Origin: Microbacterium sp. YJN-G
GTDB taxonomy: Bacteria > Actinomycetota > Actinomycetes > Actinomycetales > Microbacteriaceae
Length of the DNA: 64,000 bases
Direction: 5' to 3'
Assembly (NCBI RefSeq): GCF_015040615.1
Contig: NZ_CP060402.1
Span: 1,364,001-1,428,000 of the forward strand
The translations under genes were made by a program, and so were the position numbers. The notes beneath the pieces were generated by a model, which saw only the letters and a program-made list of their open reading frames with translations, was not told the origin of the DNA and searched no databases. The stretch's first letter is position 1. Every line of letters starts with the position of its first letter. Below, in pieces: positions 15,108 to 34,415 of this stretch.

Positions 15108-15149
15108 CGCCGGCGCCCGTCCGATGGGGATCAGCGACGGGCGCCGGCG
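15108..15149. terminator. Bidirectional terminator overlapping the IclR 3' end
   Basis: Perfect 14-bp arms CGCCGGCGCCCGTC (15108-15121) and their complement (15136-15149) enclose a 14-nt loop. The right arm lies inside the last codons of the IclR gene, whose stop is at 15131-15133, and the left arm follows the hydrolase stop at 15100, so one hairpin can end both transcripts. Confidence 0.7.
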
Positions 15150-15925
15150 ATCCGCGACGAGAGCTGGTGGGCGTGCGCGAGCAGCGTGCGGCCCAGCTGG
15201 GGCAGCCGGTCCGGACCGAAGCGGAACTCCACGCCGGTGAGGCTCAGCGCCCACTCCGGCCGGCCCTCACGATCGAACACGGCCGCGCCGATTCCCCACG
15301 ACCCCTCGACGATGAGCCCCGGGTTCACGGCATAGCCTCGCGACTTCGTCTCGCGCAGCCGGGTGCGCAGCGGCGCGATCCCGTGCGGCCGCCCCCAGCG
15401 CTCTTCGAGCTCGGGATGCCGCTCGAGGTACGCATCCACATCGTGGTCAGGCAGGAACGAGAGGATGGCCAGGCCGGCACTGGCGACTCCCAGCGGAAAG
15501 CGCACGCCCTCGCTGAGCACGAAGGAGCGGATGGGGAACGAGCCCTCCTCGCGCACCAGGCACACCGTCTCATCCGCCCGCCGGGTGGACAGGAACGCGC
15601 TCTCCTCGGTCTTCACCGCCAGCGAGCGCACGATGTCGCGGGAAAGCTCGGTGATGTCGTACCGTGACGCGGCGATCGTTCCCATAAGATACAGCTCGGG
15701 ACCCGGCATCCACAGCGCCGTCGCGGGGTCCTGATCGACGAGCCCCTCCACCCGCAGCGCGGTGAGCAGCCGGTGCGTCGTGGAGCGGCTGAGATCGGCA
15801 TCCCCGGCCAGCCGCTGCAGCGACGCGCCGTCCGCGGAGGCGGTGACCAGGCGCAGCAGCGCCGCCGCCCGCGCGACCGCCTGCGCACCCGGGACGGTGC
15901 GCCTGGCGGTGTTCGATGATTCCAT
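15131..15925 (-). CDS. IclR family transcriptional regulator
   Basis: 264 residues. The N-terminal winged helix (about residues 10-75) has 'AVARAAALLRLVTASADGASLQRLAGDADLSRSTTHRLL'. The C-terminal effector domain (about 80-260) has 'SRDIVRSLAVKTEESAFLS', 'LGVASAGLAILSFLPD' and 'YAVNPGLIVEGSWGIGAAV'. It is divergent from the CoA-transferase/thiolase genes with palindromes in between, so it is the likely regulator of that unit. IclR proteins control both ketone-body-type and beta-ketoadipate (pca) pathways; see the thiolase entry for the choice. Confidence 0.88.
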   Translation of the reverse strand: MESSNTARRTVPGAQAVARAAALLRLVTASADGASLQRLAGDADLSRSTTHRLLTALRVEGLVDQDPATALWMPGPELYLMGTIAASRYDITELSRDIVRSLAVKTEESAFLSTRRADETVCLVREEGSFPIRSFVLSEGVRFPLGVASAGLAILSFLPDHDVDAYLERHPELEERWGRPHGIAPLRTRLRETKSRGYAVNPGLIVEGSWGIGAAVFDREGRPEWALSLTGVEFRFGPDRLPQLGRTLLAHAHQLSSRIAGARR

Positions 15926-15938
15926 GATGTGGACGCTA

Positions 15939-15974
15939 GTCGCCTGTGCGACCACATCGCAAGCATGCGCTTGC
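15939..15974. promoter_or_regulatory. Two adjacent inverted repeats, candidate IclR operators
   Basis: GTCGC-CTGT-GCGAC (15939-15952) and GCAAGC-ATGC-GCTTGC (15959-15974) sit side by side in the 103-bp gap between the IclR start and the CoA-transferase start. Each has perfect arms. Confidence 0.45.
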
Positions 15975-16028
15975 CCGTGCCGACCCGCCGGGCGGATGCT
16001 GGAGAGAACCATCACGAAGGAGTGCTCT

Positions 16029-16826
16029 GTGATCGACAAGCAGTTCTCATCAGCGGCGGACGCCGTCGCCGACATCCCCGACGGGGCCTCGCTGGCCGTC
16101 GGCGGCTTCGGGCTCTCCGGCAACCCGATGAAGCTCATCGAGGCCCTGCACGCGCAGGGCACGAGCGGGCTGAGCGTCGTCAGCAACAACTGCGGCGTGG
16201 ACGACTGGGGGCTCGGCGTCCTGCTCGCCTCCCGCCGCATCCGCAAGATGACCTCGTCGTACGTCGGCGAGAACAAGGAGTTCGAGCGTCAGTTCCTCGA
16301 GGGCGACCTCGAGCTCGAGCTGACCCCGCAGGGCACCCTGGCCGAGAAGCTGCGCGCCGGCGGCGCCGGCATCGCCGCGTTCTTCACGCAGACCGGCGTC
16401 GGCACCCAGGTCGCCGAGGGCGGGCTGCCCCGGCGCTACAACCCCGACGGGACGATCGCGGTCGCCTCGCCGGTCAAGGAGGTGCGCGGGTTCGACGTGC
16501 GCGGCGAGCAGCGCGACTTCGTGCTCGAGGACTCCATCGCCACCGACTTCGCGCTCGTCCACGCGCTCAGGGGCGACCGGCACGGCAACCTGATCTTCAA
16601 CAAGGCGGCCCGCAACTTCAACCCGCTCGCCGCCATGGCAGGCCGGGTCTGCATCGCCCAGGTCGAAGAGCTCGTCGAGCCGGGCGAGCTCGACCCCGAC
16701 AGCATCCACCTGCCCGGCGTGTACGTGCATCGCGTCGTCGAGGTGGGCACCGGCATCGAGAAGCGCATCGAACGCCGCACCGTGCGCGCTTCGGCGGGCG
16801 CAGAGACCCAGGAAAGGGAGGTCTGA
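16029..16826 (+). CDS. scoA: 3-oxoacid CoA-transferase subunit A
   Basis: 265 residues. It carries '[23 protein letters not shown]', '[18 protein letters not shown]', '[29 protein letters not shown]' and '[17 protein letters not shown]', standard for the alpha subunit. GTG start with AAGGAG at 16017-16022. With the B subunit (1-nt gap) it moves CoA from succinyl-CoA to acetoacetate, or to 3-oxoadipate in the pca variant. Confidence 0.9.
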
Positions 16827-16827
16827 C

Positions 16828-17484
16828 ATGGCACTCACGCGTGACCAGATGGCGGCTCGTGCCGCTCGCGAGCTGACGGACGGCTCGTACGTCAACCTCG
16901 GCATCGGCCTGCCGACCCTCGTGCCCAACTACGTGCCGGACGACGTCACCGTGGTGCTGCAGTCCGAGAACGGCATCCTGGGCGTCGGTCCCTACCCGAC
17001 CGAGGAGAACGTCGACCCGGATCTCATCAACGCCGGCAAGGAGACGGTCACGCTGCTGCCGGGCGCGGCCTTCTTCGACTCCGCGACGAGCTTCGGCATG
17101 ATCCGCGGGGGCAAGATCGACGCCGCGATCCTCGGCGCCATGCAGGTGTCGGTGAACGGCGACCTGGCGAACTGGATGATCCCGGGCAAGATGGTCAAGG
17201 GACCCGGCGGCGCGATGGACCTCGTCCACGGCGCAGCACGGGTGATCATCCTGATGGAGCACGTCGCCAAGGACGGCTCCGCGAAGATCGTCAACGAGTG
17301 CTCGCTTCCGCTGACCGGCAGGGGAGTGGTGCACCGCATCATCACCGACCTCGCCGTGATCGACGTCACCGACGACGGGCTCGTGCTCGTCGAGACCGCT
17401 CCCGACGTCACCGTGCAGCAGATCATCGATGCCACCGAGCCGCCGCTGACGGTCTCGGAGGGCCTGAAGGAGAAGTCATCATGA
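16828..17484 (+). CDS. scoB: 3-oxoacid CoA-transferase subunit B
   Basis: 218 residues. The catalytic glutamate lies in '[14 protein letters not shown]' (about residue 51). '[15 protein letters not shown]' and '[19 protein letters not shown]' are also typical. ATG after AAGGGAGG. The stop overlaps the thiolase start by ATGA (17481-17484). Confidence 0.92.
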
Positions 17485-18659
17485 GCGACATCGTCATCGT
17501 CGCCGCCGCCCGCACCCCGCAGGGACGCCTGAAGGGGCAGCTCGCGTCGTTCACCGCACCGCAGCTCGGATCGCTCGCCATCCGCGGCGCCCTCGAGCAG
17601 GCGGCCATCTCGCCCACCGACATCGACGCCGTCGTGATGGGGCAGGTGCTCGCGGCCGGATCCGGTCAGAACGCGGCCCGCCAGGCCGCGATCGGCGCGG
17701 GTATCGGCTGGGACGTGCCCTCCAGCTCGGTCAACAAGGTCTGCCTGTCGGGGCTGACCGCGATCATCGATGCCGCCCGCATGATCCGCACCGGCGACGC
17801 CACCACCGTGGTCGCCGGCGGCATGGAGTCCATGACCCGCGCACCGCACCTGCTGGTCGGCTCACGCGACGGCTGGACCTACGGCAGCATCGAGGTGCTC
17901 GACCACATGGCGTACGACGGGCTCACCGACGCGTACGACAGGGAGAGCATGGGCGCGTCGACGGAGCGGCACAACCCGCGGTTCGAGATGACCCGCGAGC
18001 GACAGGATGCCGTGGCCGCGCTCTCGCACCAGCGTGCAGCCGCAGGCCAGGGTACCGGGGTCTTCGACGCCGAGATCGTGCCCGTGACCGTGCCGCAGCG
18101 CAAGGGCGACCCGATCGTGCTCACCAAGGACGAGGGCGTGCGGCCCGACACGACCGTCGAGACCCTCGCGGGCCTGCGCCCGGCGTTCGCCGAGGGCGGC
18201 ACCATCACCGCGGGCAACTCGTCGCAGATCTCCGACGGCGCCGCCGCGGTGATCGTGACCACTCGCGAGAACGCCCAGGCGAAGGGATGGTCCGTGCTGG
18301 CCGTCATCGGGGCGAGCGGGCAGACCGCCGGCCCCGACAACTCGCTGCAGGCGCAGCCGGCCCGCGCCGTCGAGCGCGCGCTCGAGAAGCAGGGGATCAC
18401 CGCCGACCAGCTCGATCTCGTCGAGATCAACGAGGCCTTCGGCGCCGTGGTCGCGCGTTCGCAGGAAGAGCTCGGCCTGTCCGGAGACATCGTGAACGTG
18501 CACGGCGGCGGGATCGCCATCGGGCATCCGATCGGCGCCAGCGGTGCGCGGCTGGTCGTGCACCTCGCGCACGAACTGGCCAAGCGCGGCTCGGGCACTG
18601 CGGTCGCCGCGCTCTGCGGCGGCGGCGGTCAGGGAGAGGCCTTGGTCCTCACACGTTGA
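17481..18659 (+). CDS. Acetyl-CoA C-acetyltransferase (thiolase)
   Basis: 392 residues. Active-site Cys is in 'NKVCLSGL' (about residue 88), with '[10 protein letters not shown]', '[16 protein letters not shown]' and the second Cys in '[11 protein letters not shown]'. The '[25 protein letters not shown]' stretch is typical of actinobacterial acetoacetyl-CoA thiolases. Together with ScoAB it would convert acetoacetate to two acetyl-CoA. A 3-oxoadipyl-CoA thiolase (PcaF) was considered because of the IclR neighbour, but the 3-hydroxybutyrate dehydrogenase nearby and the lack of other pca genes favour the ketone-body route. Confidence 0.88.
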
Positions 18660-19074: not shown

Positions 19075-19093
19075 CTAGGTGAGCCTAACCTTC
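19075..19093. promoter_or_regulatory. DtxR/IdeR-type iron box upstream of the Fe ABC operon
   Basis: CTAGGTGAGCCTAACCTTC; read on the other strand it matches the known actinobacterial iron box TTAGGTTAGGCTCACCTAA at 16 of 19 positions. It ends 13 bp before the ATG of the binding protein, so a bound repressor would block the operon when iron is plentiful. Confidence 0.85.
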
Positions 19094-19106: not shown

Positions 19107-20138
19107 ATGCACGCCTCCGGCCTGCGCTCCGTCGCGCTCCTCGCATCATTGGCCTCGATCGCAGCCGTCACGGCCTGCGCCCCCGCCGGGGAAGGCGGAG
19201 CCGCGGATGCCGATGCGCTGATCATCTACAACGCGCAGCACGAGCAGCTGACCGAGGAGTGGACTGCGGTGTTCACCGAGGAGACCGGCATCGAGGTGGT
19301 GCTGCGCAACGGCGGCGACAGTGAGCTGGGCAGCCAGCTGGTGCAGGAGGGGGATGCCTCTCCTGCCGACGTGTTCCTGACCGAGAACTCGCCGGCGATG
19401 TCGCTGGTCGAGCAGGCGGGCCTCTTGGCCCCGGTCGACGACGCGACCCTCGAGGTCGTCCCGCAGCAGTTCCGTCCCAGCAGCGGAGCGTGGACCGGCA
19501 TCGCGGCACGCGACACTGTGCTGGTCTACAATCCCGACCTCATCTCGGAGGACGAGCTGCCCGACTCGATCATGCAGCTGCAGGACCCGCAGTGGAAGGG
19601 CAAGTGGGGAGCGGCGCCGGGTGGGGCGGACTTCCAGGCCATCGTCTCGGCCATCCTCGCCACCGAGGGTGAGGAGGCCGCTGCGGCGTGGCTGGCGGGG
19701 ATGCAGGAGAACGCCGAGAAGTACCGCAACAACATCGTCACCATGAAGGCCGTCAACGACGGCGAGGTTCCGATGGGGATCATCTACCACTACTACTGGT
19801 ACCGCGATCAGGCCGACACGAAGGAGAGCAGCGGGAACACCGCGCTGCACCGCTTCGCAGCCGGCGACCCCGGCGCCTTCGTGAGCATCTCCGGCGGCGG
19901 GGTGCTCGCCTCCAGCGACCACCCCGAAGAGGCGCAGCAGTTCCTGTCCTGGCTGGTCGGCGAGAGCGGGCAGACGATCCTCGGAGAGGGCTACAGCTAC
20001 GAGTACCCGGTCGCCAGCGGCATCCCGCCGCGCTCGCCGCTTCCGCCGCTGGAATCCCTCGGCGCGCCCGAGATCGATCCGTCCGTGCTCAACGGGCCGA
20101 CCGTGATCGACCTGATGACCGAGGCGGGCCTGCTCTGA
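19107..20138 (+). CDS. Iron(III) ABC transporter substrate-binding lipoprotein
   Basis: 343 residues. Signal peptide with lipobox V-T-A-C (about residues 21-24). The mature part begins 'LIIYNAQHEQLTEEWTAVFTEETGIEVVLRNGGDSELGSQLVQEG', typical of FbpA/FutA-type Fe(3+) binding proteins. Tyr pairs that bind ferric iron in this family appear in 'YHYYWYRD' (about residues 229-236). AAAGGA precedes the ATG. The iron box upstream agrees with the function. Direct binding of Fe(3+) or a small ferric chelate such as citrate is expected. Confidence 0.9.
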   Translation: MHASGLRSVALLASLASIAAVTACAPAGEGGAADADALIIYNAQHEQLTEEWTAVFTEETGIEVVLRNGGDSELGSQLVQEGDASPADVFLTENSPAMSLVEQAGLLAPVDDATLEVVPQQFRPSSGAWTGIAARDTVLVYNPDLISEDELPDSIMQLQDPQWKGKWGAAPGGADFQAIVSAILATEGEEAAAAWLAGMQENAEKYRNNIVTMKAVNDGEVPMGIIYHYYWYRDQADTKESSGNTALHRFAAGDPGAFVSISGGGVLASSDHPEEAQQFLSWLVGESGQTILGEGYSYEYPVASGIPPRSPLPPLESLGAPEIDPSVLNGPTVIDLMTEAGLL

Positions 20139-20149
20139 GCGCAACCCCG

Positions 20150-21739
20150 GTGACCACGACCGCGGCGCGCACAGACCCGGGGCACACGACCCCGGCGCGC
20201 GCCCCCCGTGGTCGTGCGCCACGGCCGGGTGCGCGACGATACCCGTGGATGCTCGCCGCCGCGGTGGCGGCGATGGCGGCGTTCGCGCTGATCCCGGTCG
20301 GCTACGTCGTCATCTCCAGTGCGCAGACCGGCGCTGCGCGGCTGGCACAGCTGCTGCTGCGCCCGCGTGTCGCGGAGCTCACCGTCAACACGGTGCTGCT
20401 GGTCGTGCTGGGGATCGGCGCCGCCCTCGTCATCGGCATCGGCGGTGCCTGGCTGGTCGAGCGCACCGTGATGCCCCTGCGCCGCGTCTTCGCCGTGGCG
20501 CTGGCCGCGCCGCTGGCCGTGCCGGCGTTCGTGATGAGCTACGGCTGGGCCACGGTCGCCCCGGGGCTCGACGGGCTGGGCGGGGCCGTGCTCATCTCGG
20601 CGTGCGCCTACTCGCCGCTGGTGTACCTGCCGGCCGTGGCGGCGCTGCGCGGTCTGGATCCCGCCCTCGAGGAGTCGGCCCGGTCGCTGGGACTCGGCCC
20701 CTGGCGGGTGTTCCTGCGGGTCGTGCTCCCTCAGCTGCGCCTCGCGGCGCTCGGCGGCGGGCTGGTGGTGGGTCTGCATCTGCTTGCCGAGTACGGCGCC
20801 TTCGCCTTCCTGCAGTTCGACACCTTCACGACGGCGATCATGGTGGCCTACCAGTCGAACTTCGGCGGAGCGAACGCCGCCGCGCTCGGCATCGTGCTGA
20901 CCGGGCTCTGCCTGGTGCTCGTGCTCGCCGAGACGCGGATGCGCGGCGGCGCCCGCCTGTCGCGCACCGCCGCGAACCGCCCGGCCACCCGGGCGGCGCT
21001 CGGACCCTGGGCCGTTCCCGCCGTGATCGGGCTGCTGGCGTTCATCTGCGCGGCGCTGATCGTGCCGCTGTCGTCGGTGCTGCGCTGGGGGCTGCGCACG
21101 GATGCCGGCGACTGGGCCGCCGTGACACCGGCCGCCGTGCAGACAGTGCTGCTCGCCGTCGGCGCCGCACTCGCCTGCGCGGCCGTCGCGCTGCCGGTCG
21201 CGTGGCTGGCCGTGCGGCACCGCCGCAGACTCAGCATGATGCTGGAGGGCGGCTTCTACCTCGCAGGCAGCCTGCCGGCGATCATCGTCGCACTCGCCCT
21301 GGTCGGTGTCGCACTGCAGGCCGCGCCGGGCCTGTACCAGACCGCCGCGACGGCGATAGCGGCCTACGTGATCCTGTTCCTGCCGCGCATCCTCGTGCCG
21401 CTCCGTGCCGGCCTGGCGCAGATCCCGCCCGAATGGGAGGAGGCCGCGCGCTCGCTCGGGACGCCTCCGATGCTCGCGCGGCTGCGTGTCACCGCGCCGC
21501 TGCTCGCCCCCGCCGTCGCGAGCGGAGCGGCCCTGGTCGCCCTGGGCGCCGCCAACGAGCTCACCGCGACGCTGCTGCTGGCCCCGATCGGCACCGAGAC
21601 CATCGCGACCGGGTTCTGGTCGGCGGCATCCGCCATCGACTACATCGCCGCCGCCCCTTACGCACTCACACTGATCGTGATCTCGGTGCCTGCGGTGCAC
21701 CTGATGTTCACGGAAGCGACGTCGAGAGGCAGCGCATGA
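20150..21739 (+). CDS. Iron(III) ABC transporter permease (two-domain)
   Basis: 529 residues with about twelve hydrophobic segments in two halves, as in FbpB/SfuB. Each half has an EAA-type loop: 'LDPALEESARSLGLGPWRVFLRVVLP' (about residue 175) and 'IPPEWEEAARSLGTPPMLARLRVTAP' (about 425). The start is uncertain: the GTG at 20150 follows the FbpA stop by 11 nt without a strong ribosome site, and an internal ATG at 20249 is possible. The stop overlaps the ATPase start (ATGA 21736-21739). Confidence 0.88.
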   Translation: MTTTAARTDPGHTTPARAPRGRAPRPGARRYPWMLAAAVAAMAAFALIPVGYVVISSAQTGAARLAQLLLRPRVAELTVNTVLLVVLGIGAALVIGIGGAWLVERTVMPLRRVFAVALAAPLAVPAFVMSYGWATVAPGLDGLGGAVLISACAYSPLVYLPAVAALRGLDPALEESARSLGLGPWRVFLRVVLPQLRLAALGGGLVVGLHLLAEYGAFAFLQFDTFTTAIMVAYQSNFGGANAAALGIVLTGLCLVLVLAETRMRGGARLSRTAANRPATRAALGPWAVPAVIGLLAFICAALIVPLSSVLRWGLRTDAGDWAAVTPAAVQTVLLAVGAALACAAVALPVAWLAVRHRRRLSMMLEGGFYLAGSLPAIIVALALVGVALQAAPGLYQTAATAIAAYVILFLPRILVPLRAGLAQIPPEWEEAARSLGTPPMLARLRVTAPLLAPAVASGAALVALGAANELTATLLLAPIGTETIATGFWSAASAIDYIAAAPYALTLIVISVPAVHLMFTEATSRGSA

Positions 21740-22806
21740 CACTCCAGCTCAACGGCATCCGGCGCTCGTTCGGTGCGGAACCGGTGCTCGACGGCGTCAC
21801 GTTCGAGGTGCCGACCGGGTCGCGGATGGCCCTGGTGGGGGCCTCAGGCAGCGGCAAGAGCACGCTGCTGCGGCTGATCGCGGGCTTCGACCGCCCCGAT
21901 TCGGGGAGCATCGTCCTCGACGGGACCACCCTGGCCGACGACCGCGTACTGGTCCCCGCGCACCGTCGCGGCATCGGCTACGTGCCGCAGGACGGGGCGC
22001 TCTTCCCGCACCTGAGCGTCGCGCGCAACATCGGCTTCGGGCTGCCCCGCGGCCCGCACCGTGCCGCCCGTGTGCGCGAGATGATGGCGCTGACCTCGCT
22101 GGCTCCCGAACTCGCCGACCGGGCCCCGCACGAGCTCTCCGGCGGGCAGCAGCAGCGCGTCGCGCTGGCGCGCGCGCTCGCCCCGGCGCCGAAGGTGCTG
22201 CTGCTCGACGAACCGTTCAGCGCCCTCGACACCGCACTGCGCATGCAGACCCGCGAGGCGACCATCGAGATCCTGGAGCGCACCGAGGTGACGACGGTGC
22301 TGGTCACGCACGATCAGGATGAGGCACTGTCGTTCGGCGACCTCATCGGCGTCGTCGGCGCGGGCGGACTGGCCCAGCACGGCGAGCCGGCGACGGTGTT
22401 CGACGCGCCCTCCGACCGGGCGACCGCCGAGTTCCTGGGCGCAGCCGTGCACCTGCCGGCGCGGCGGCTCGACGAGGATGCGATCGTGTGCGCGCTCGGG
22501 CCGGCAGGCGTGCGGCACGACCTGTCGGGAGGGGCGGCCGAGGTCGCCGCGATGTTCCGCCCCAGCCAGCTCGAGATTGTCGCCGACGGGGACGCCGCCG
22601 GTCAGGCGACGATCACCGCACGCCGCGCGATCGGCGCCCGCACCGAGCTGCGCGTCGACATCCACGGCGCCGAGGGCGTGCGGGTGTGGATCCAGGTGCC
22701 CACCCACCGCGCCGCGGTGACGATCGACGGCGACGCCGTCAGTCTCCGGATCGCAGGCGGGGTCGTGCTGTATCCGGCATCCGACGACGCGCTGCAGCGC
22801 CACTGA
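21736..22806 (+). CDS. Iron(III) ABC transporter ATP-binding protein
   Basis: 356 residues. Walker A GASGSGKSTLL, signature LSGGQQQRVALARAL, Walker B VLLLDEPFSALD and H-loop 'VLVTHDQDEAL', followed by a C-terminal TOBE-like regulatory domain (about residues 240-356), as in FbpC. The last 68 bp overlap the end of the convergent adenylation/acyltransferase gene, so there is no room for a terminator between them. Confidence 0.9.
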   Translation: MTLQLNGIRRSFGAEPVLDGVTFEVPTGSRMALVGASGSGKSTLLRLIAGFDRPDSGSIVLDGTTLADDRVLVPAHRRGIGYVPQDGALFPHLSVARNIGFGLPRGPHRAARVREMMALTSLAPELADRAPHELSGGQQQRVALARALAPAPKVLLLDEPFSALDTALRMQTREATIEILERTEVTTVLVTHDQDEALSFGDLIGVVGAGGLAQHGEPATVFDAPSDRATAEFLGAAVHLPARRLDEDAIVCALGPAGVRHDLSGGAAEVAAMFRPSQLEIVADGDAAGQATITARRAIGARTELRVDIHGAEGVRVWIQVPTHRAAVTIDGDAVSLRIAGGVVLYPASDDALQRH

Positions 22807-25405
22807 GCGCCGCAGACCCGCTCAGCAGTCGCGAGATCCGCCGGTGGATCGCCCACGCCGCGATCCCGACGATCAGTGACAGCAGGGTTCCCACCAGCGG
22901 TGCCGTGCGCTCGAACGGCGGGTACACCACCCAGTGGGTCAGGTAGATGAACAGCGACGCCTGCGCGATGAGCGTGATCGGCGGCCGCAGCCAGCCGGGC
23001 ACGCGCACGGCGGCGACCCAGATCAGCAGCAGGACCCCTGCGGCGATGATGCCCTCGCGCAGCGGATCGCCGAAGAATCCGGGGACGAGGACCACGGCCA
23101 GCACCGAGGCGACGACCCGCCGGCGGATGCTGTCGGCGCGGGCGATCACCCAGCCCAGGGCGATGCACCACAGCACCGTCGGCACGGCGTAGCGCTCGAC
23201 GTGCTCGGCCGGCGACGCCCCCAGCAGTGTGAGACGGACGGCGACGGTCACCGCCAGCGCGCCCAGCGCGAACGCCCACGGCGCGGCGCGCTCGATCCGG
23301 TCGATGCGGGCCGAGGCGAACAGGGCGACCAGCGGCAGCATCGTCCACACCATCGCCTCGAGGAACCAGAACTGCCACTGCTCGCTCCACAGCCCGTCCG
23401 AGGGCATCGCACCGTTGACCAGCAGCACGGTCGGCAGGGCGTACTTGCCGCTGATCAGCGCGACCGCACCGATCCACAGCACCGCCGGGATGACGACCTG
23501 CGCCGCCGCGGCGAGCAGTCGCCGAGACCGGGAGCCGGGGGCGGGCGAGAGCGCGAAGCGGGCGAGGTTGTAGCCGGCGACGATGAGCAGCAGATGCGCA
23601 CCGCCCTTGAGCGAGAAGTCCTCACCCAGGAACAGGTCGGCGTGCGTGCCGACGATCAGCACGATCGCGATCGCCCGCAGCAGCACCGGCGTCTCGAGGG
23701 CGGGCAGGTTGCGCAGCCGCCCGGCACCGGCGCGCCGGCGGCGTGGAGCGGCATCATCCGCGTCCGCGGACCTCGCGGATGCCGCGGGCGACGAGGGTGC
23801 CACCAGGCCCGCGAGCTCGACGGCGGTCAGCGACGGCCAGTCGCGGGGGAGCGGTCCGATCAGTTCCTCGAGCCGCACGGATGCCTCCACGTAGCTCAGC
23901 GAGTCGCCGCCCAGGGTGGAGAAGCTGTCCGACTCGGCGGCATCCGGTCGCCCGGTGCAGACCCCGAGCACCGTGCGGACCTGCTCGGCGGTGGCGCCGC
24001 CGGCATCCGCCGGCTCAGCGCCGGTCTGCAGCGCGGTGACCGCGCGGTGGTGGGCCAGCAGCGCGGCGTTGTCCGGTTTGCCCGAGGAGGTGACGGGGAA
24101 CGCGTCGACGATGTGCACGGTGACGGCGGATGCAGGCAGCCCGAGCCGCGCCGAGACCACCCGGTTCGCCGCAGCGGCATCCCGCCCGTCGTGGACGAAG
24201 ACGAGCAGCTCCTCGCCGTCGGCGGCGGTGCGCGCGGCGATGCCGTCCTGCCCGAGAAGGGCCTGCACCCGGTCGAGGTCGATGCGCAGCCCGAAGATCT
24301 TCACGAAGCGGTTCATCCGCCCGACGATCTCGACGTAGCCGTCGTCGCGCCAGCGCGCCAGATCGCCGGTGCGCAGCTCGTCGACGGTGCGACCGAGAGC
24401 GAGGTCCGCCGGCGACTCCGCATAGCCGAGCATGACGTTCGGCCCCGAGTACACCAGCTCCCCGGCATCCGAGCCGTCGACCGCATCGATGCGGAACGAG
24501 CCCCCGGGGATCGCGCGCCCGATGGACCCGGCGCCGCTGATGGCATCCTCCGGCGGCAGGTACGACATGCGGGCCGTGGCCTCGGTCTGGCCGTACATCG
24601 TGATGAACTCGAACCCGCGCTCGCGTCCGGCCGCCGCCAGCGCCCGCACCCGGTCGGCCGGCAGCCGGCCGCCGGCCTGCGTCAGATAGCGGATGCCGTC
24701 GGGCAGCCGATCCACCCCGCCGACCGCGTCGAGCAGGTCGAAGGTGTACGGGACCCCGGCGATGCCCGTGACCCCCGTCTCGGCGGCGCGGAGCCAGAAC
24801 GCCTCGTCCGACACCGAGCGGTCGGTGAGCACGAGGCCCGCGCCGGCGAGCAGGTGGCTGTTGATGACCGAGAGGCCGTAGCAGTAGTGCATCGGCAGCG
24901 AGGTGATCGCGCGGTCGCCGGGAGTGATGCGCAGGTACTCGACGATCGCCTCGGCGTTGGCCAGCAGCGATGCGGCCGAGATGCGCACCAGCTTGGGTGA
25001 GCCGGTCGAGCCCGAGGTGCTCATCAGCAGCGCCAGATCGTCGTGCAGCTCGTGGATCGTGCCCTCGCGGACGGGACGCACGACGCCGTCGGCGAGGATC
25101 GCGTCGGGGTCGAATCGTTCCCGCAGCGTCGCCCGGGTCGACGCGGATGCCGTGTCATCGCCGCCGGGGGCGAGCAGCACCGGATGCCCGCCGGCGAGGG
25201 CACCCGCATACGCCGCGATGCTCGCGCTGGTGTTGCCCGCCTCGAGCATCACCAGCCGCCTGGTCTCACCCAGCTCGAGCCGGATCGCGTCGGCGCGACG
25301 GCCGAGATCCGCATAGCTGATCGGCCCGTCGTCGGTCCACAGGGCGATGGCGGCGGGGTCGCCGCGGAGCAGGTCCGCGGCGGGAGCGGTGGGGAGAGGG
25401 AGCAC
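22739..25405 (-). CDS. Adenylation - carrier protein - membrane acyltransferase fusion
   Basis: 888 residues from the GTG at 25405, which follows GCGAGGA; a TTG at 25429 would overlap the iron box. Residues ~1-465 form an ANL adenylation domain: 'LLMSTSGSTGSPKLVRIS' (A3), 'MYGQTEA' (A5), 'LRTGDLARW' (A7), 'GRMNRFVKIFG' (A8) and 'PVTSSGKPD' (A10 Lys). Residues ~475-540 form a peptidyl/acyl carrier domain with attachment Ser in 'STLGGDSLSYVEA'. Residues ~555-860 are an Acyl_transf_3-type domain with about ten membrane helices and the His motif 'RAIAIVLIVGTHADLF'. No condensation or thioesterase domain is seen. The protein could activate an acid, load it on the carrier and pass it to an acceptor at or across the membrane. 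Substrate unknown; iron control is suggested by the box at 25427. Confidence 0.85.
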   Translation of the reverse strand: MLPLPTAPAADLLRGDPAAIALWTDDGPISYADLGRRADAIRLELGETRRLVMLEAGNTSASIAAYAGALAGGHPVLLAPGGDDTASASTRATLRERFDPDAILADGVVRPVREGTIHELHDDLALLMSTSGSTGSPKLVRISAASLLANAEAIVEYLRITPGDRAITSLPMHYCYGLSVINSHLLAGAGLVLTDRSVSDEAFWLRAAETGVTGIAGVPYTFDLLDAVGGVDRLPDGIRYLTQAGGRLPADRVRALAAAGRERGFEFITMYGQTEATARMSYLPPEDAISGAGSIGRAIPGGSFRIDAVDGSDAGELVYSGPNVMLGYAESPADLALGRTVDELRTGDLARWRDDGYVEIVGRMNRFVKIFGLRIDLDRVQALLGQDGIAARTAADGEELLVFVHDGRDAAAANRVVSARLGLPASAVTVHIVDAFPVTSSGKPDNAALLAHHRAVTALQTGAEPADAGGATAEQVRTVLGVCTGRPDAAESDSFSTLGGDSLSYVEASVRLEELIGPLPRDWPSLTAVELAGLVAPSSPAASARSADADDAAPRRRRAGAGRLRNLPALETPVLLRAIAIVLIVGTHADLFLGEDFSLKGGAHLLLIVAGYNLARFALSPAPGSRSRRLLAAAAQVVIPAVLWIGAVALISGKYALPTVLLVNGAMPSDGLWSEQWQFWFLEAMVWTMLPLVALFASARIDRIERAAPWAFALGALAVTVAVRLTLLGASPAEHVERYAVPTVLWCIALGWVIARADSIRRRVVASVLAVVLVPGFFGDPLREGIIAAGVLLLIWVAAVRVPGWLRPPITLIAQASLFIYLTHWVVYPPFERTAPLVGTLLSLIVGIAAWAIHRRISRLLSGSAALSGAAARRRMPDTARPRLRSGD

Positions 25406-25426
25406 GGGTCCTCGCTTCCGGTTCAG

Positions 25427-25445
25427 CAAGGTGAGCCTAACCTAT
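25427..25445. promoter_or_regulatory. DtxR/IdeR-type iron box in divergent promoter
   Basis: CAAGGTGAGCCTAACCTAT; the other strand matches the consensus TTAGGTTAGGCTCACCTAA at 16 of 19 positions. It shares 15 identical bases (AGGTGAGCCTAACCT) with the box at 19075. It lies 22 nt upstream of the fusion gene's GTG, and about 30 bp upstream of the -10 of the MFS gene on the other strand, so it could control both directions. Confidence 0.85.
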
Positions 25446-25474
25446 CCTGAGAGCCCGAAACGAGGGCATGACGC

Positions 25475-25480
25475 TAGAAT
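25475..25480 (+). promoter_or_regulatory. Candidate -10 box and structured leader of MFS gene
   Basis: TAGAAT at 25475-25480 is a good -10. Transcription from about 25487 would give a leader of about 118 nt before the ATG at 25605. The leader begins with a perfect hairpin (GCCGGC-CCAG-GCCGGC, 25491-25506) and continues with further GC-rich complementary stretches near 25530-25560. No known riboswitch is recognised. Confidence 0.45.
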
Positions 25481-25604
25481 GATGATGACCGCCGGCCCAG
25501 GCCGGCGTGCTTCCACTGTGTATCTACCGGCCGCCGGCATCCCGGCGGACAGCGGCGGCACCCGACCCGGCGTCGCAGCACTCCGCTCGCGACGCCCGAG
25601 AGCC

Positions 25605-26828
25605 ATGACACAGACCACCACGTCGTCGCCGAGCCTGCTGCGTCTCGCCGGCCTGCCCTACTTCGTCATCGCGTTCATCGCGCGTCTGCCCTTCGCGATG
25701 ATGGTCGTCGGCGTGCTGACGATCGTCGTCACCGTGCGCGGTTCGCTCTCCCTCGGCGGCATCACCTCGGCCGCGGTCGGCGTGGGCACCGCGCTGATCG
25801 GCCCCTTCCTCGGAGCGGCGGCCGACCGGTACGGCCAGCGACCCGTGCTCGTCGCCGCCGCGGTGCTGAACTCCGTCATGCTCGCCGCCTTCGCGGCGGT
25901 GGTCTACAGCCCGCTTCCGGAGAGCCTGATCCTGCTCACCGCACTCGCGATCGGTGCCACCGCACCCCAGGTCGCGCCGATGTCGCGTTCCCGGCTGGTC
26001 ACCATCATCGACGAGCGGATGCCGCGTGAGCGCCGCATCCGCACCACCTCGGCGACCATGTCGTACGAGTCCGCCGCCGACGAGACCGTCTTCGTCTTCG
26101 GCCCGTTCCTCGTCGGCGCGCTCGCCTCGCTCATCGCGCCGTGGGCGCCGATCGTGATCGCCGCAGCACTCACCCTGATCTTCGTGGGCGCCTTCGCCCT
26201 GCACCCCACCGGCCGGCACGTGTCCGCGACGCGCGGTGCCGGGGGAGCGGCGCCGTCCGCCGTCTCGGAGCTGTTCCGCCCCAGCCTGATCGTCGTCGTG
26301 CTCGGCATCCTCGGCGTCGGGCTGTTCTTCGGGGCGACCCTCACCGCGCTCACCTCGTTCATGGCAGACCGGGGTGCGGCCGAGCAGGCAGGGCTCCTGT
26401 ACGGCGTCATGGGCATCGGTTCGGCGATCCTCGCGCTGGGAGTGGCCTGGCTGCCTCCACGGTTCACCCTGCACGCACGCTGGCTCGTCTTCGGCAGCAT
26501 CCTGCTGGCCGGATCGGCGCTCGTGGCCACGGCATCCTCGGTGGGGATGATGACGATCGCCCTCGCCCTTCTCGGCATCGGCGTGGGGCCGACCCTGGTC
26601 ACGCTGTACAGCCTCGGCGCCGCACGCAGCCCGCTGGGACGCTCGGCCACGGTCATGACCATGCTCGGCTCGGCCGTGATCGTGGGGCAGGCCGCGGCCT
26701 CGGCGATCACCGGCGGACTCGCCGAGAGCACCGGCACCGCGGCCGCCCTGCTGTTGCCGCTCGTCGCCTCCGCGATCGTGGTCGGCTCGGGCATCGCGAA
26801 CCGCCTGCTTGCGACATCCCGCTCCTGA
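25605..26828 (+). CDS. MFS transporter, candidate iron-regulated exporter
   Basis: 407 residues with about twelve hydrophobic segments. The loop motif between helices 2 and 3 is 'GAAADRYGQRPVLVAAA' (typical MFS A-motif variant), and a central cytoplasmic loop lies near residues 195-220. The ATG at 25605 was chosen because the longer open frame to 25479 begins within the -10 box. It is divergent from the adenylation/acyltransferase fusion and shares its iron box, so export of that enzyme's product is a natural guess; the substrate is otherwise unknown. Confidence 0.8.
   Translation: MTQTTTSSPSLLRLAGLPYFVIAFIARLPFAMMVVGVLTIVVTVRGSLSLGGITSAAVGVGTALIGPFLGAAADRYGQRPVLVAAAVLNSVMLAAFAAVVYSPLPESLILLTALAIGATAPQVAPMSRSRLVTIIDERMPRERRIRTTSATMSYESAADETVFVFGPFLVGALASLIAPWAPIVIAAALTLIFVGAFALHPTGRHVSATRGAGGAAPSAVSELFRPSLIVVVLGILGVGLFFGATLTALTSFMADRGAAEQAGLLYGVMGIGSAILALGVAWLPPRFTLHARWLVFGSILLAGSALVATASSVGMMTIALALLGIGVGPTLVTLYSLGAARSPLGRSATVMTMLGSAVIVGQAAASAITGGLAESTGTAAALLLPLVASAIVVGSGIANRLLATSRS

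Positions 26829-32704: not shown

Positions 32705-34415
<1,711 letters not shown>

Follow-up and report, generated by a model that had tools for sequence, protein, structure and literature searches.

Within the window, the 64,000-nucleotide stretch of Microbacterium sp. YJN-G DNA that was analyzed, a gene that we call APA encodes an adenylation domain, a carrier domain, and an Acyl_transf_3 (AT3) membrane domain in one polypeptide. It is flanked by a ferric ABC operon and an MFS transporter gene:

19075-19093, no strand, DtxR/IdeR-type iron box of the ferric ABC operon (CTAGGTGAGCCTAACCTTC; 16/19, hand count)
19107..20138, plus strand, Fe(III)-binding protein of the SfuA/YfuA/FbpA type (matches to YfuA 1xvx and SfuA 1xvy)
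20138..21739, plus strand, ferric ABC permease (two BPD_transp_1 stretches; start approximate)
21736..22806, plus strand, ferric ABC ATPase (Pfam)
22739..25405, minus strand, APA gene, adenylation-carrier-AT3 fusion (GTG start, 888 aa; open reading frame and Pfam)
22832..23692, minus strand, AT3 membrane domain, about residues 572-858 (Pfam, predicted model, alignment)
23786..23998, minus strand, carrier domain, about residues 470-540, with Ser502 in GGDSL (alignment and family Pfam)
24041..25405, minus strand, adenylation domain, about residues 1-455 (Pfam, alignment, Foldseek)
C175 Y176 S179 A216 T242 A244 M270 A278 R279 K443, putative pocket letters of the adenylation domain
25427-25445, no strand, DtxR/IdeR-type iron box between APA and the MFS gene (CAAGGTGAGCCTAACCTAT; 16/19 to TWAGGTWAGSCTWACCTWA, hand count)
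25605..26828, plus strand, divergent MFS transporter (ATG 25605; MFS_1 2.6e-19), a lineage-specific neighbor

The open frame of APA extends to a TTG at 25429 (22739-25429, minus strand). Because this TTG falls within the iron box, the GTG at 25405 (888 residues, as in database entry P0001) is the likelier start, with the TTG as a possible alternative. Pfam finds AMP-binding (1.3e-35) and Acyl_transf_3 (1.3e-13; 51.2 bits versus a cutoff of 31) in APA and no condensation or thioesterase domain; the window's carrier (FSTLGGDSLSYVEA) scores under Pfam's limit for PP-binding. Across 45 family members, AMP-binding is found in 45, PP-binding in 40, and AT3 in 42, and a Pfam scan of the same 45 gave no condensation or release domain. 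The domain order claimed in the first-pass annotation, including the lack of condensation and release domains, is thus real in the window and conserved in the family. The GGDSL serine that it had also pointed out, and whose loss in homologues was to be looked for, is kept as Ser502 in 92 of 92 aligned rows (the query, 88 loci, and L150-L152, with two repeat loci, L014 and L015, included) at identities down to 36%, and the same holds for R577 and H588 in the first helix of the AT3 domain (R577-X10-H588). We read ten helices in the AT3 domain of the predicted model, and judging by charge both of its ends are probably cytosolic; the model has a pTM of 0.53 and thus does not establish the packing of the domains. 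The window genome gave only one match to a phosphopantetheinyl transferase, in a small frame.

APA is carried by many soil actinobacteria, often beside a ferric-iron importer. A single-protein search over a class-wide sample of 197 genomes (own genome included) found it in 30, about one in seven; it is present in 2 of 59 genomes of the genus and 8 of 150 of the family (own genome counted in both). The 88 loci compared below comprise 86 distinct ones, as L014 repeats L024 and L015 repeats L026; of the 449 confirmed stretches, the best 80 were taken as named loci, which biases the set to close relatives. The class sample adds 29 loci, 28 of them new, since L153 repeats L084. Of the features whose recurrence across genomes was to be looked for, the iron boxes and the ferric ABC genes recur and the MFS gene does not.

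The iron box noted between the fusion and the MFS gene lies 21 bp upstream of the GTG start and that of the ABC operon 13 bp upstream of the Fe(III)-binding protein gene; TWAGGTWAGSCTWACCTWA is what we take to be the 19-bp palindromic DtxR/IdeR consensus. With up to 2 mismatches allowed, the 3.62-Mb genome matches the degenerate pattern TWAGGTNAGSCTNACCTWA at only 5 places and the reversed-pattern control at none; a more stringent palindrome, allowed up to 3 mismatches, had no hits in the genome and recovered neither window box. The other 3 places precede siderophore-uptake-type genes (SIP, Peripla_BP_2, FecCD, ABC ATPase), which makes the box credible; these other boxed iron-uptake genes stand apart from APA. 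A box of at least 15/19 was found upstream of APA in 61 of 88 loci and upstream of the Fe-binding protein gene in 47 of 50, in windows from −300 to +60 bp of the inferred start (to +90 bp in the class sample). Sites of at least 16/19 number 89 in 1.68 Mb against none in the control with reversed sequence, and those of exactly 15/19 number 26 versus 2. The box tracks the transcription unit of APA: 56 of 63 stand-alone loci have their own APA box versus 3 of 23 loci co-directional with the ABC genes, and in 22 of these 23 the box is at the Fe-binding gene, the remaining locus being cut off before that gene. Counting its own box or the operon's, APA is under an iron box at 78 of 86 distinct loci and 26 of 29 class-sample loci, so the lack of box conservation that was to count against the proposal is not seen; 8 of the 86 have none at 15/19 or above. 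We consider the boxes well supported; by its box, APA is a predicted member of the DtxR/IdeR iron regulon.

The window's Fe(III)-binding protein matches the solved structures of YfuA (1xvx, 6.1e-119) and SfuA (1xvy, 2.1e-113). The first-pass annotation had described a Fe(3+) ABC operon next door with its own box, which is correct, except that the operon is convergent to APA and its last gene, encoding the ATPase, overlaps the APA 3' end (22739-22806). The ABC neighborhood recurs, with all three ferric ABC genes within 9 kb of APA at 49 of 86 distinct loci and 22 of 29 class-sample loci, in convergent, co-directional, or divergent order and with binding proteins 31 to 80% identical to the window's. 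(L025, labeled co-directional upstream on the strength of a single ATPase match some 8 kb distant, was tallied as stand-alone in the 56/63; L094 is labeled co-directional downstream, yet the genes for its binding protein and permease are upstream of APA.) The arrangement changes at least 15 times on a quick APA tree, indicating that the linkage has been re-formed. No ABC part is nearby at 30 of 86 distinct loci, 7 of them with a short flank. Of 31 loci without a local ABC, 30 were checked (all but L060, with L025 added as an extra), L015, L016, L017, and L021 in a family-level search for SfuA-like proteins and the other 26 separately; in 30 of 30 (29 genomes) an SfuA-like protein is encoded elsewhere, mostly a distant one (34 to 39% identity in 20 of 30). 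In the family sample, SfuA-like proteins occur in 8 of 8 genomes with APA versus 27 of 142 without (P = 4.5e-6, kinship not corrected; both counts taken as the same 150 genomes, among the matches listed), and in 5 of the 8 the identity is only 34 to 39%. We consider the partnership of APA with the ferric ABC transporter well supported.

The importer itself does not need APA, as all 7 ABC loci without it have their own box; these controls are all the genomes with a listed binding protein of at least 57% identity and no APA match. No adenylation-carrier-AT3 partner, fused or split, was found at any of the 7. A split APA beside such loci was rejected on this count (0/7), the ligases in 2 of them being unrelated (29 to 30% identity).

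The divergent MFS gene had been presented as an exporter belonging to the pathway. The gene is present, but it neighbors APA at only 5 of 88 loci, or 4 of the 86 distinct ones, every one of them in the window's Microbacterium clade, and at 0 of 29 class-sample loci, which rules it out as a core partner; at all 5 MFS-bearing loci the two genes share the boxed intergenic region. Leaving aside presumed antisense ABC frames, no further family in the ORF clustering recurs at more than 8 loci, and no other recurrent neighbor was evident by eye in 25 neighborhoods.

Which acid does APA activate? The pocket positions except 235 were placed by what we take to be GrsA numbering. The letters read CYSATAMARK in 89 of 92 rows, CYSSTAMARK in 1, and CYSHTAMARK in 2 (L150 and L151). 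In two alignments to LgrA, the position of the amino-holding Asp (GrsA 235) falls opposite Cys175, present in 92 of 92 rows, or Gly177, invariant in 45 members, and the stretch that holds α-amino groups lacks Asp in APA; the substrate is most likely a small carboxylic acid and not a normal α-amino acid. Foldseek matches of the adenylation model (MenE, MatB, PltF, EntE-EntB) have E-values within one order of magnitude, too alike to name the acid, and this approach was dropped. The invariant Arg279 might have indicated a dicarboxylic substrate, an idea weakened by its presence in all four free-standing ligase relatives, two of which have the pocket SYSATAMARK. As these ligases have much of the pocket in common with APA, and the 9 to 20 kb read contain no iron box of at least 15/19, the acid of APA need not be an iron ligand. 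Two of the four adjoin carrier-like, SDR/LuxE, or dehydratase-like genes, with glycosyltransferases also nearby as judged by eye. These surroundings and the missing Asp tilt the balance toward APA acylating a surface glycan or lipid.

Several known systems resemble parts of APA. DltA, DltC, and DltB (ligase, carrier, and membrane acyltransferase) d-alanylate teichoic acids, and APA would likewise carry an activated acid through the membrane and onto an acceptor at the surface. Unlike Dlt, APA is one polypeptide with an AT3 domain instead of an MBOAT (DltB), lacks the amino-binding Asp in the pocket stretch, and has an iron box and a ferric ABC partner. NRPS siderophore modules of the EntE/EntB/EntF type also combine adenylation and carrier domains under iron control, and EntE-EntB is among the structural matches, but APA has a membrane transferase and neither condensation or thioesterase domains nor the amino-binding Asp. 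The linked transporter resembles SfuABC/YfuABC/FbpABC through its binding protein and differs in being paired with APA; we know of no APA-like enzyme in those systems. APA shares PF01757, ten helices (in the model), and R-X10-H with the AT3/TmAT family (OafA/OafB/OatA, IcaC, VanT), whose motif is given as R/K-X10-H in the part of PMC7448272 consulted; it differs in its presumed donor, a cytosolic adenylation-carrier front end instead of free acyl-CoA. The AT3 fusions named in the consulted parts of PMC9558356, PMC12423673, and PMC7448272 involve SGNH, racemase, and NRF domains and the extra domains of HGSNAT and CASD1. The main texts contain no occurrence of "acyl carrier" or "non-ribosomal" (PMC9558356), "carrier protein," "adenylation," or "pantetheine" (PMC12423673), or "AMP" or "nonribosomal" (PMC7448272). 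By its description in the part of PMC5550956 consulted, Rhodococcus "NRPS-1" is similar to the APA locus, with one adenylation and one carrier domain, an MFS gene, and a product that is not known; it is placed in all strains but pathogenic mycobacteria, and that part does not mention AT3 or an iron box.

The architecture, its invariance, the iron boxes, the linkage, and the co-occurrence are established. We hypothesize, with a probability of roughly 0.5, that APA is a self-contained iron-starvation enzyme that activates and translocates an acyl group and partners an Fbp/Sfu-type ferric importer. In low iron, DtxR/IdeR would leave the conserved box and APA would be made. From its invariant parts, the cytosolic adenylation domain would convert a small carboxylic acid other than a normal α-amino acid to acyl-AMP and attach it to the phosphopantetheine borne by Ser502 of the same polypeptide. 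By analogy to the AT3 family, the ten-helix domain would receive the acyl group from the carrier at R577 and H588 and transfer it to a hydroxyl group on an acceptor outside the cytoplasm. Linkage and co-occurrence suggest that the product, most likely an acylated glycan or glycolipid of the surface, would hold Fe(III) at the envelope, from where it could reach the SfuA-type binding protein and the ABC transporter. The acid, acceptor, and product are all inferred; the product is most likely a ferric ligand, either surface-bound or released, that supplies the importer. The specific version, in which an envelope glycan or lipid bearing an iron-holding acyl group acts as a surface "iron antenna" that loads the SfuA-type importer and replaces a secreted siderophore, is less likely than not.

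A surface polymer could instead be acylated when iron is short, to serve some function unrelated to holding it (charge, permeability, adhesion, xenosiderophore or phage access), with the ABC transporter merely co-regulated. AT3 members mostly acylate surface sugars according to the consulted part of PMC9558356, and the surroundings of 2 of the 4 free-standing ligases are polysaccharide-like. However, repeated re-linkage to the ferric ABC genes in varied orders, even with binding proteins as different as those above, exceeds the needs of shared regulation, and the genome's other boxed iron-uptake genes are unlinked to APA; this explanation is unlikely, if a serious contender. We regard as rather unlikely that APA builds a small diffusible siderophore, its AT3 domain joining the acid to a soluble acceptor for export (by the MFS transporter in Microbacterium) and re-import with iron. 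The iron box, the boxed region common to APA and MFS genes, and the action of some AT3 proteins on small antibiotics would fit, but the MFS gene is missing in 83 of 88 and 29 of 29 loci, no further family recurs, and the linked binding protein belongs to the Fe(III) SfuA/FbpA class and not to the Peripla_BP_2 class.

The patchy spread in genus and family and the occurrence of the ABC genes alone could also reflect two iron-regulated units that travel together by horizontal transfer and are functionally uncoupled. This is quite improbable given that 8 of 8 APA genomes in the family sample also have an SfuA-like protein and that one is encoded elsewhere for 30 of 30 checked loci without a local ABC, though many of these proteins are distant. 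That APA is a functionless degenerate NRPS remnant would account for the missing condensation and release domains but is contradicted by the invariant carrier Ser and AT3 Arg and His and is hardly credible.

The enzyme is present in about one-seventh of the sampled genomes of the class and nearly always iron-boxed where the flank was read (26/29), yet its sources give only generic names; those among 120 relatives listed are AMP-binding protein, acyl-CoA synthetase, NRPS, tyrocidine synthase, and hypothetical protein. We found no description of the fusion in the literature, as judged from titles and abstract openings. If its product handles iron, APA may represent a novel means of iron capture and would explain how actinobacteria without an evident siderophore synthetase feed a ferric importer; the window strain is an example, with no IucA/IucC match in the genome and no AMP-binding frame longer than 908 aa, the longest of nine. 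Carrier-bound acyl donors would also be added to the AT3 family. Apparently free-standing AT3 relatives gave no context: of 67 matches, 25 have an adenylation or carrier domain as well, and short contigs are the source of many, so they look like pieces of the same fusion.

APA carries AMP-binding, GGDSL carrier and Acyl_transf_3 domains, and a domain scan of the protein found neither condensation nor thioesterase domains, which confirms the domain order without condensation or release domain read in the first-pass annotation. The iron box proposed between APA and the divergent transporter gene (MFS) and a separate box for the ferric ABC operon are both present.

22739-25405, minus strand: APA, 888 residues; AMP-binding, GGDSL carrier, Acyl_transf_3
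25427-25445: APA/MFS iron box, CAAGGTGAGCCTAACCTAT; 21 bp upstream of GTG 25405 and, on the other side, 159 bp upstream of the start of the divergent MFS gene
19075-19093: iron box preceding the ferric ABC operon

The start of APA is ambiguous by eight residues (TTG 25429 or GTG 25405); we took GTG 25405 because TTG 25429 falls within the iron box. An AlphaFold2 model built from a 45-sequence alignment has a mean pLDDT of 88 but a pTM of 0.53, so the individual domains can be trusted but not the way they pack. By our own reading of the model, the C-terminal part has ten membrane helices, and its basic loops lie on the same side as both termini, which would put the adenylation and carrier domains on the cytosolic side. 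Score, helices and motif place APA in the AT3 (acyltransferase-3) family.

A ligase, a carrier and an AT3 domain in one chain would form a one-piece machine in which an acid is activated and then moved across the membrane. DltA-DltC-DltB has a similar working principle, but APA is not a member of that system: its transferase is of another family and it has no amino-acid pocket. An NRPS loading module works in a partly similar mode; APA is nevertheless not an NRPS synthetase, because condensation and release domains are absent.

A protein search with APA gave 7458 proteins at E <= 0.001 among 8000 scored candidates; all 120 of the matches listed have AMP-binding and Acyl_transf_3 (precomputed Pfam assignments), and the closest named relatives are from Microbacterium. 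Searching one genome per species, we found relatives encoded in 449 stretches. The best 80 of these, kept for locus analysis, come from Microbacteriaceae, Nocardioidaceae, Micromonosporaceae, Rhodococcus, Micrococcaceae, Demequina and Phytoactinopolyspora. In the class sample, 34/197 genomes match at E <= 1e-60, four by an adenylation domain alone. The distribution is patchy but wide, since APA occurs in 2/59 genomes of the genus, 8/150 of the family and 30/197 of the class (own genome included in each).

In the source genome (two contigs, 3.62 Mb), a degenerate box pattern with <=2 mismatches has five sites (reversed-pattern control, 0); a stricter palindrome scan with 3 mismatches allowed recovered neither window box. 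The other three sites lie upstream of siderophore-interacting protein and Peripla_BP_2, FecCD or ABC ATPase genes, so all five are at iron genes or APA.

The box recurs across genomes, a check that the annotation had proposed. An own APA box of >=15/19 is found at 61 of 88 loci (86 distinct), and 47/50 Fe-binding protein genes have one. Sites of >=16/19 number 89 in 1.68 Mb versus 0 in reversed sequence, and those at 15/19 number 26 versus 2. If the operon's box is credited to APA wherever APA and the ABC genes share a direction, APA is under a box in 78/86 distinct loci. The split is telling: an own box is present for 56/63 APA genes that stand alone versus 3/23 in co-directional units. All three ABC genes lie <=9 kb from APA in 49/86 distinct loci; the ABC genes are convergent with APA in 28 (the window's type), co-directional in 24 (including, on weak grounds, locus L025), divergent in 4 and absent nearby in 30, of which 7 have short flanks. 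Mapped on a quick tree built from 89 APA rows, this arrangement requires at least 15 changes. The class sample, drawn independently of similarity, agrees on boxes and linkage: 22/29 loci have a full ABC, 21/29 an own APA box and 19/22 a boxed Fe-binding gene, with 0 sites in the reversed control. With operon boxes (L154, L156, L157, L164, L174), APA is under a box in 26/29; L151, L173 and L175 have none, own or operon's. Of the two neighbours named in the annotation, the Fe-ABC recurs and the MFS does not (0/29 class-sample loci). Even the most diverged full-length APA of those examined, L152 (36% identity), starts downstream of a near-perfect iron box, TTAGGTTAGCCTAACCTAT. In four loci of one genus (L161, L165, L167, L171) the gene immediately upstream of APA is a large one in the same direction, called at about 1000-1730 aa; DETVLWDSA..GPHESYHVQGL occurs in at least three of these genes.

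SfuA-like proteins accompany APA. In the family sample (E <= 1e-20) they occur in 8/8 APA genomes versus 27/142 without APA (Fisher 4.5e-6, kinship ignored), being only 35-39% identical in 5/8; in the genus sample (E <= 1e-30) the counts are 2/2 versus 6/57 (p 0.016). Among 31 loci without a local ABC, all 30 checked (29 genomes) have such a protein elsewhere in the genome, only 34-39% identical in 20/30.

A link between acyl transfer and iron is inferred from regulation, linkage and co-occurrence. We hypothesize, at a probability of about one half, that the APA product is a ferric ligand, surface-bound or released, which supplies the importer. Against a coupling of APA and ABC counts that the importer stands on its own, since 7/7 ABC loci without APA have an iron box. 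A surface change without iron binding is rather unlikely. L119, an 18-kb locus in a same-genus genome, lacks APA and MFS and is apparently a natural "ABC only" form of the window locus, with ilvC/ilvN/ilvB/ilvD/otsB-like genes next to its ferric ABC, a setting that by eye matches the window. In two APA-less genomes (L121, L125), an APA-unrelated AMP-binding ligase (29-30% identity) precedes a ferric ABC operon that has an iron box.

The carrier serine S502, together with R577 and H588, is kept in 92/92 aligned rows. The putative pocket, whose prediction the annotation had proposed, reads CYSATAMARK in 89/92, the other three deviating at one position. The Asp of amino-acid-activating domains aligns with Cys175 in one LgrA alignment and with Gly177 in the other, a numbering uncertain by two residues, and the APA family has Asp at neither; the remaining positions follow what we take to be the GrsA numbers. 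Because the ten putative letters are near-uniform and Asp is absent, the family likely shares a single type of substrate that is no ordinary alpha-amino acid. Four free-standing adenylation relatives (39-43% identity) read SYSATAMARK (two), SFSPQAMPRK and SYSGTAMSRK. One has as neighbours an SDR, a LuxE-type protein and a carrier scoring at Pfam's cut-off; beside another are a dehydratase-like protein and a frame that looks carrier-like by eye but has no Pfam match, and glycosyltransferase-like genes were also recognised by eye; a third has a phosphopantetheinyl transferase (PPTase) next door; the fourth showed no such neighbour. These neighbourhoods lean to short acids on carbohydrates rather than classical siderophores. 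That APA makes a diffusible siderophore, which would also suit iron control, is doubtful. The only PPTase match in the source genome (L126, C1:722996-723244) lies in a 123-residue open frame of AcpS-like size, so arming the APA carrier may fall to it.

Accessible parts of three AT3 papers (PMC9558356, PMC12423673, PMC7448272) report fusions to SGNH, racemase, NRF and a few others, and describe no adenylation-carrier-AT3 fusion; nor did our searches of open-licence papers turn up one that describes the APA fusion. A Rhodococcus genome survey (PMC5550956) mentions an adenylation-carrier cluster of one module that includes an MFS gene and has no assigned product, which may or may not be APA; NRPS-like clusters of N. 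simplex that a table in PMC7824959 gives without known match are likewise only candidates.

Elsewhere in the window, 15131-18659, just before the ferric ABC genes, holds an IclR-type regulator, CoA-transferase-like ORFs (by eye) and a thiolase, perhaps an aromatic-acid degradation operon. A repeated stretch (16 protein letters in one frame) lies at 33214-33387, around the gap that separates the ilvN-like from the ilvC-like gene.
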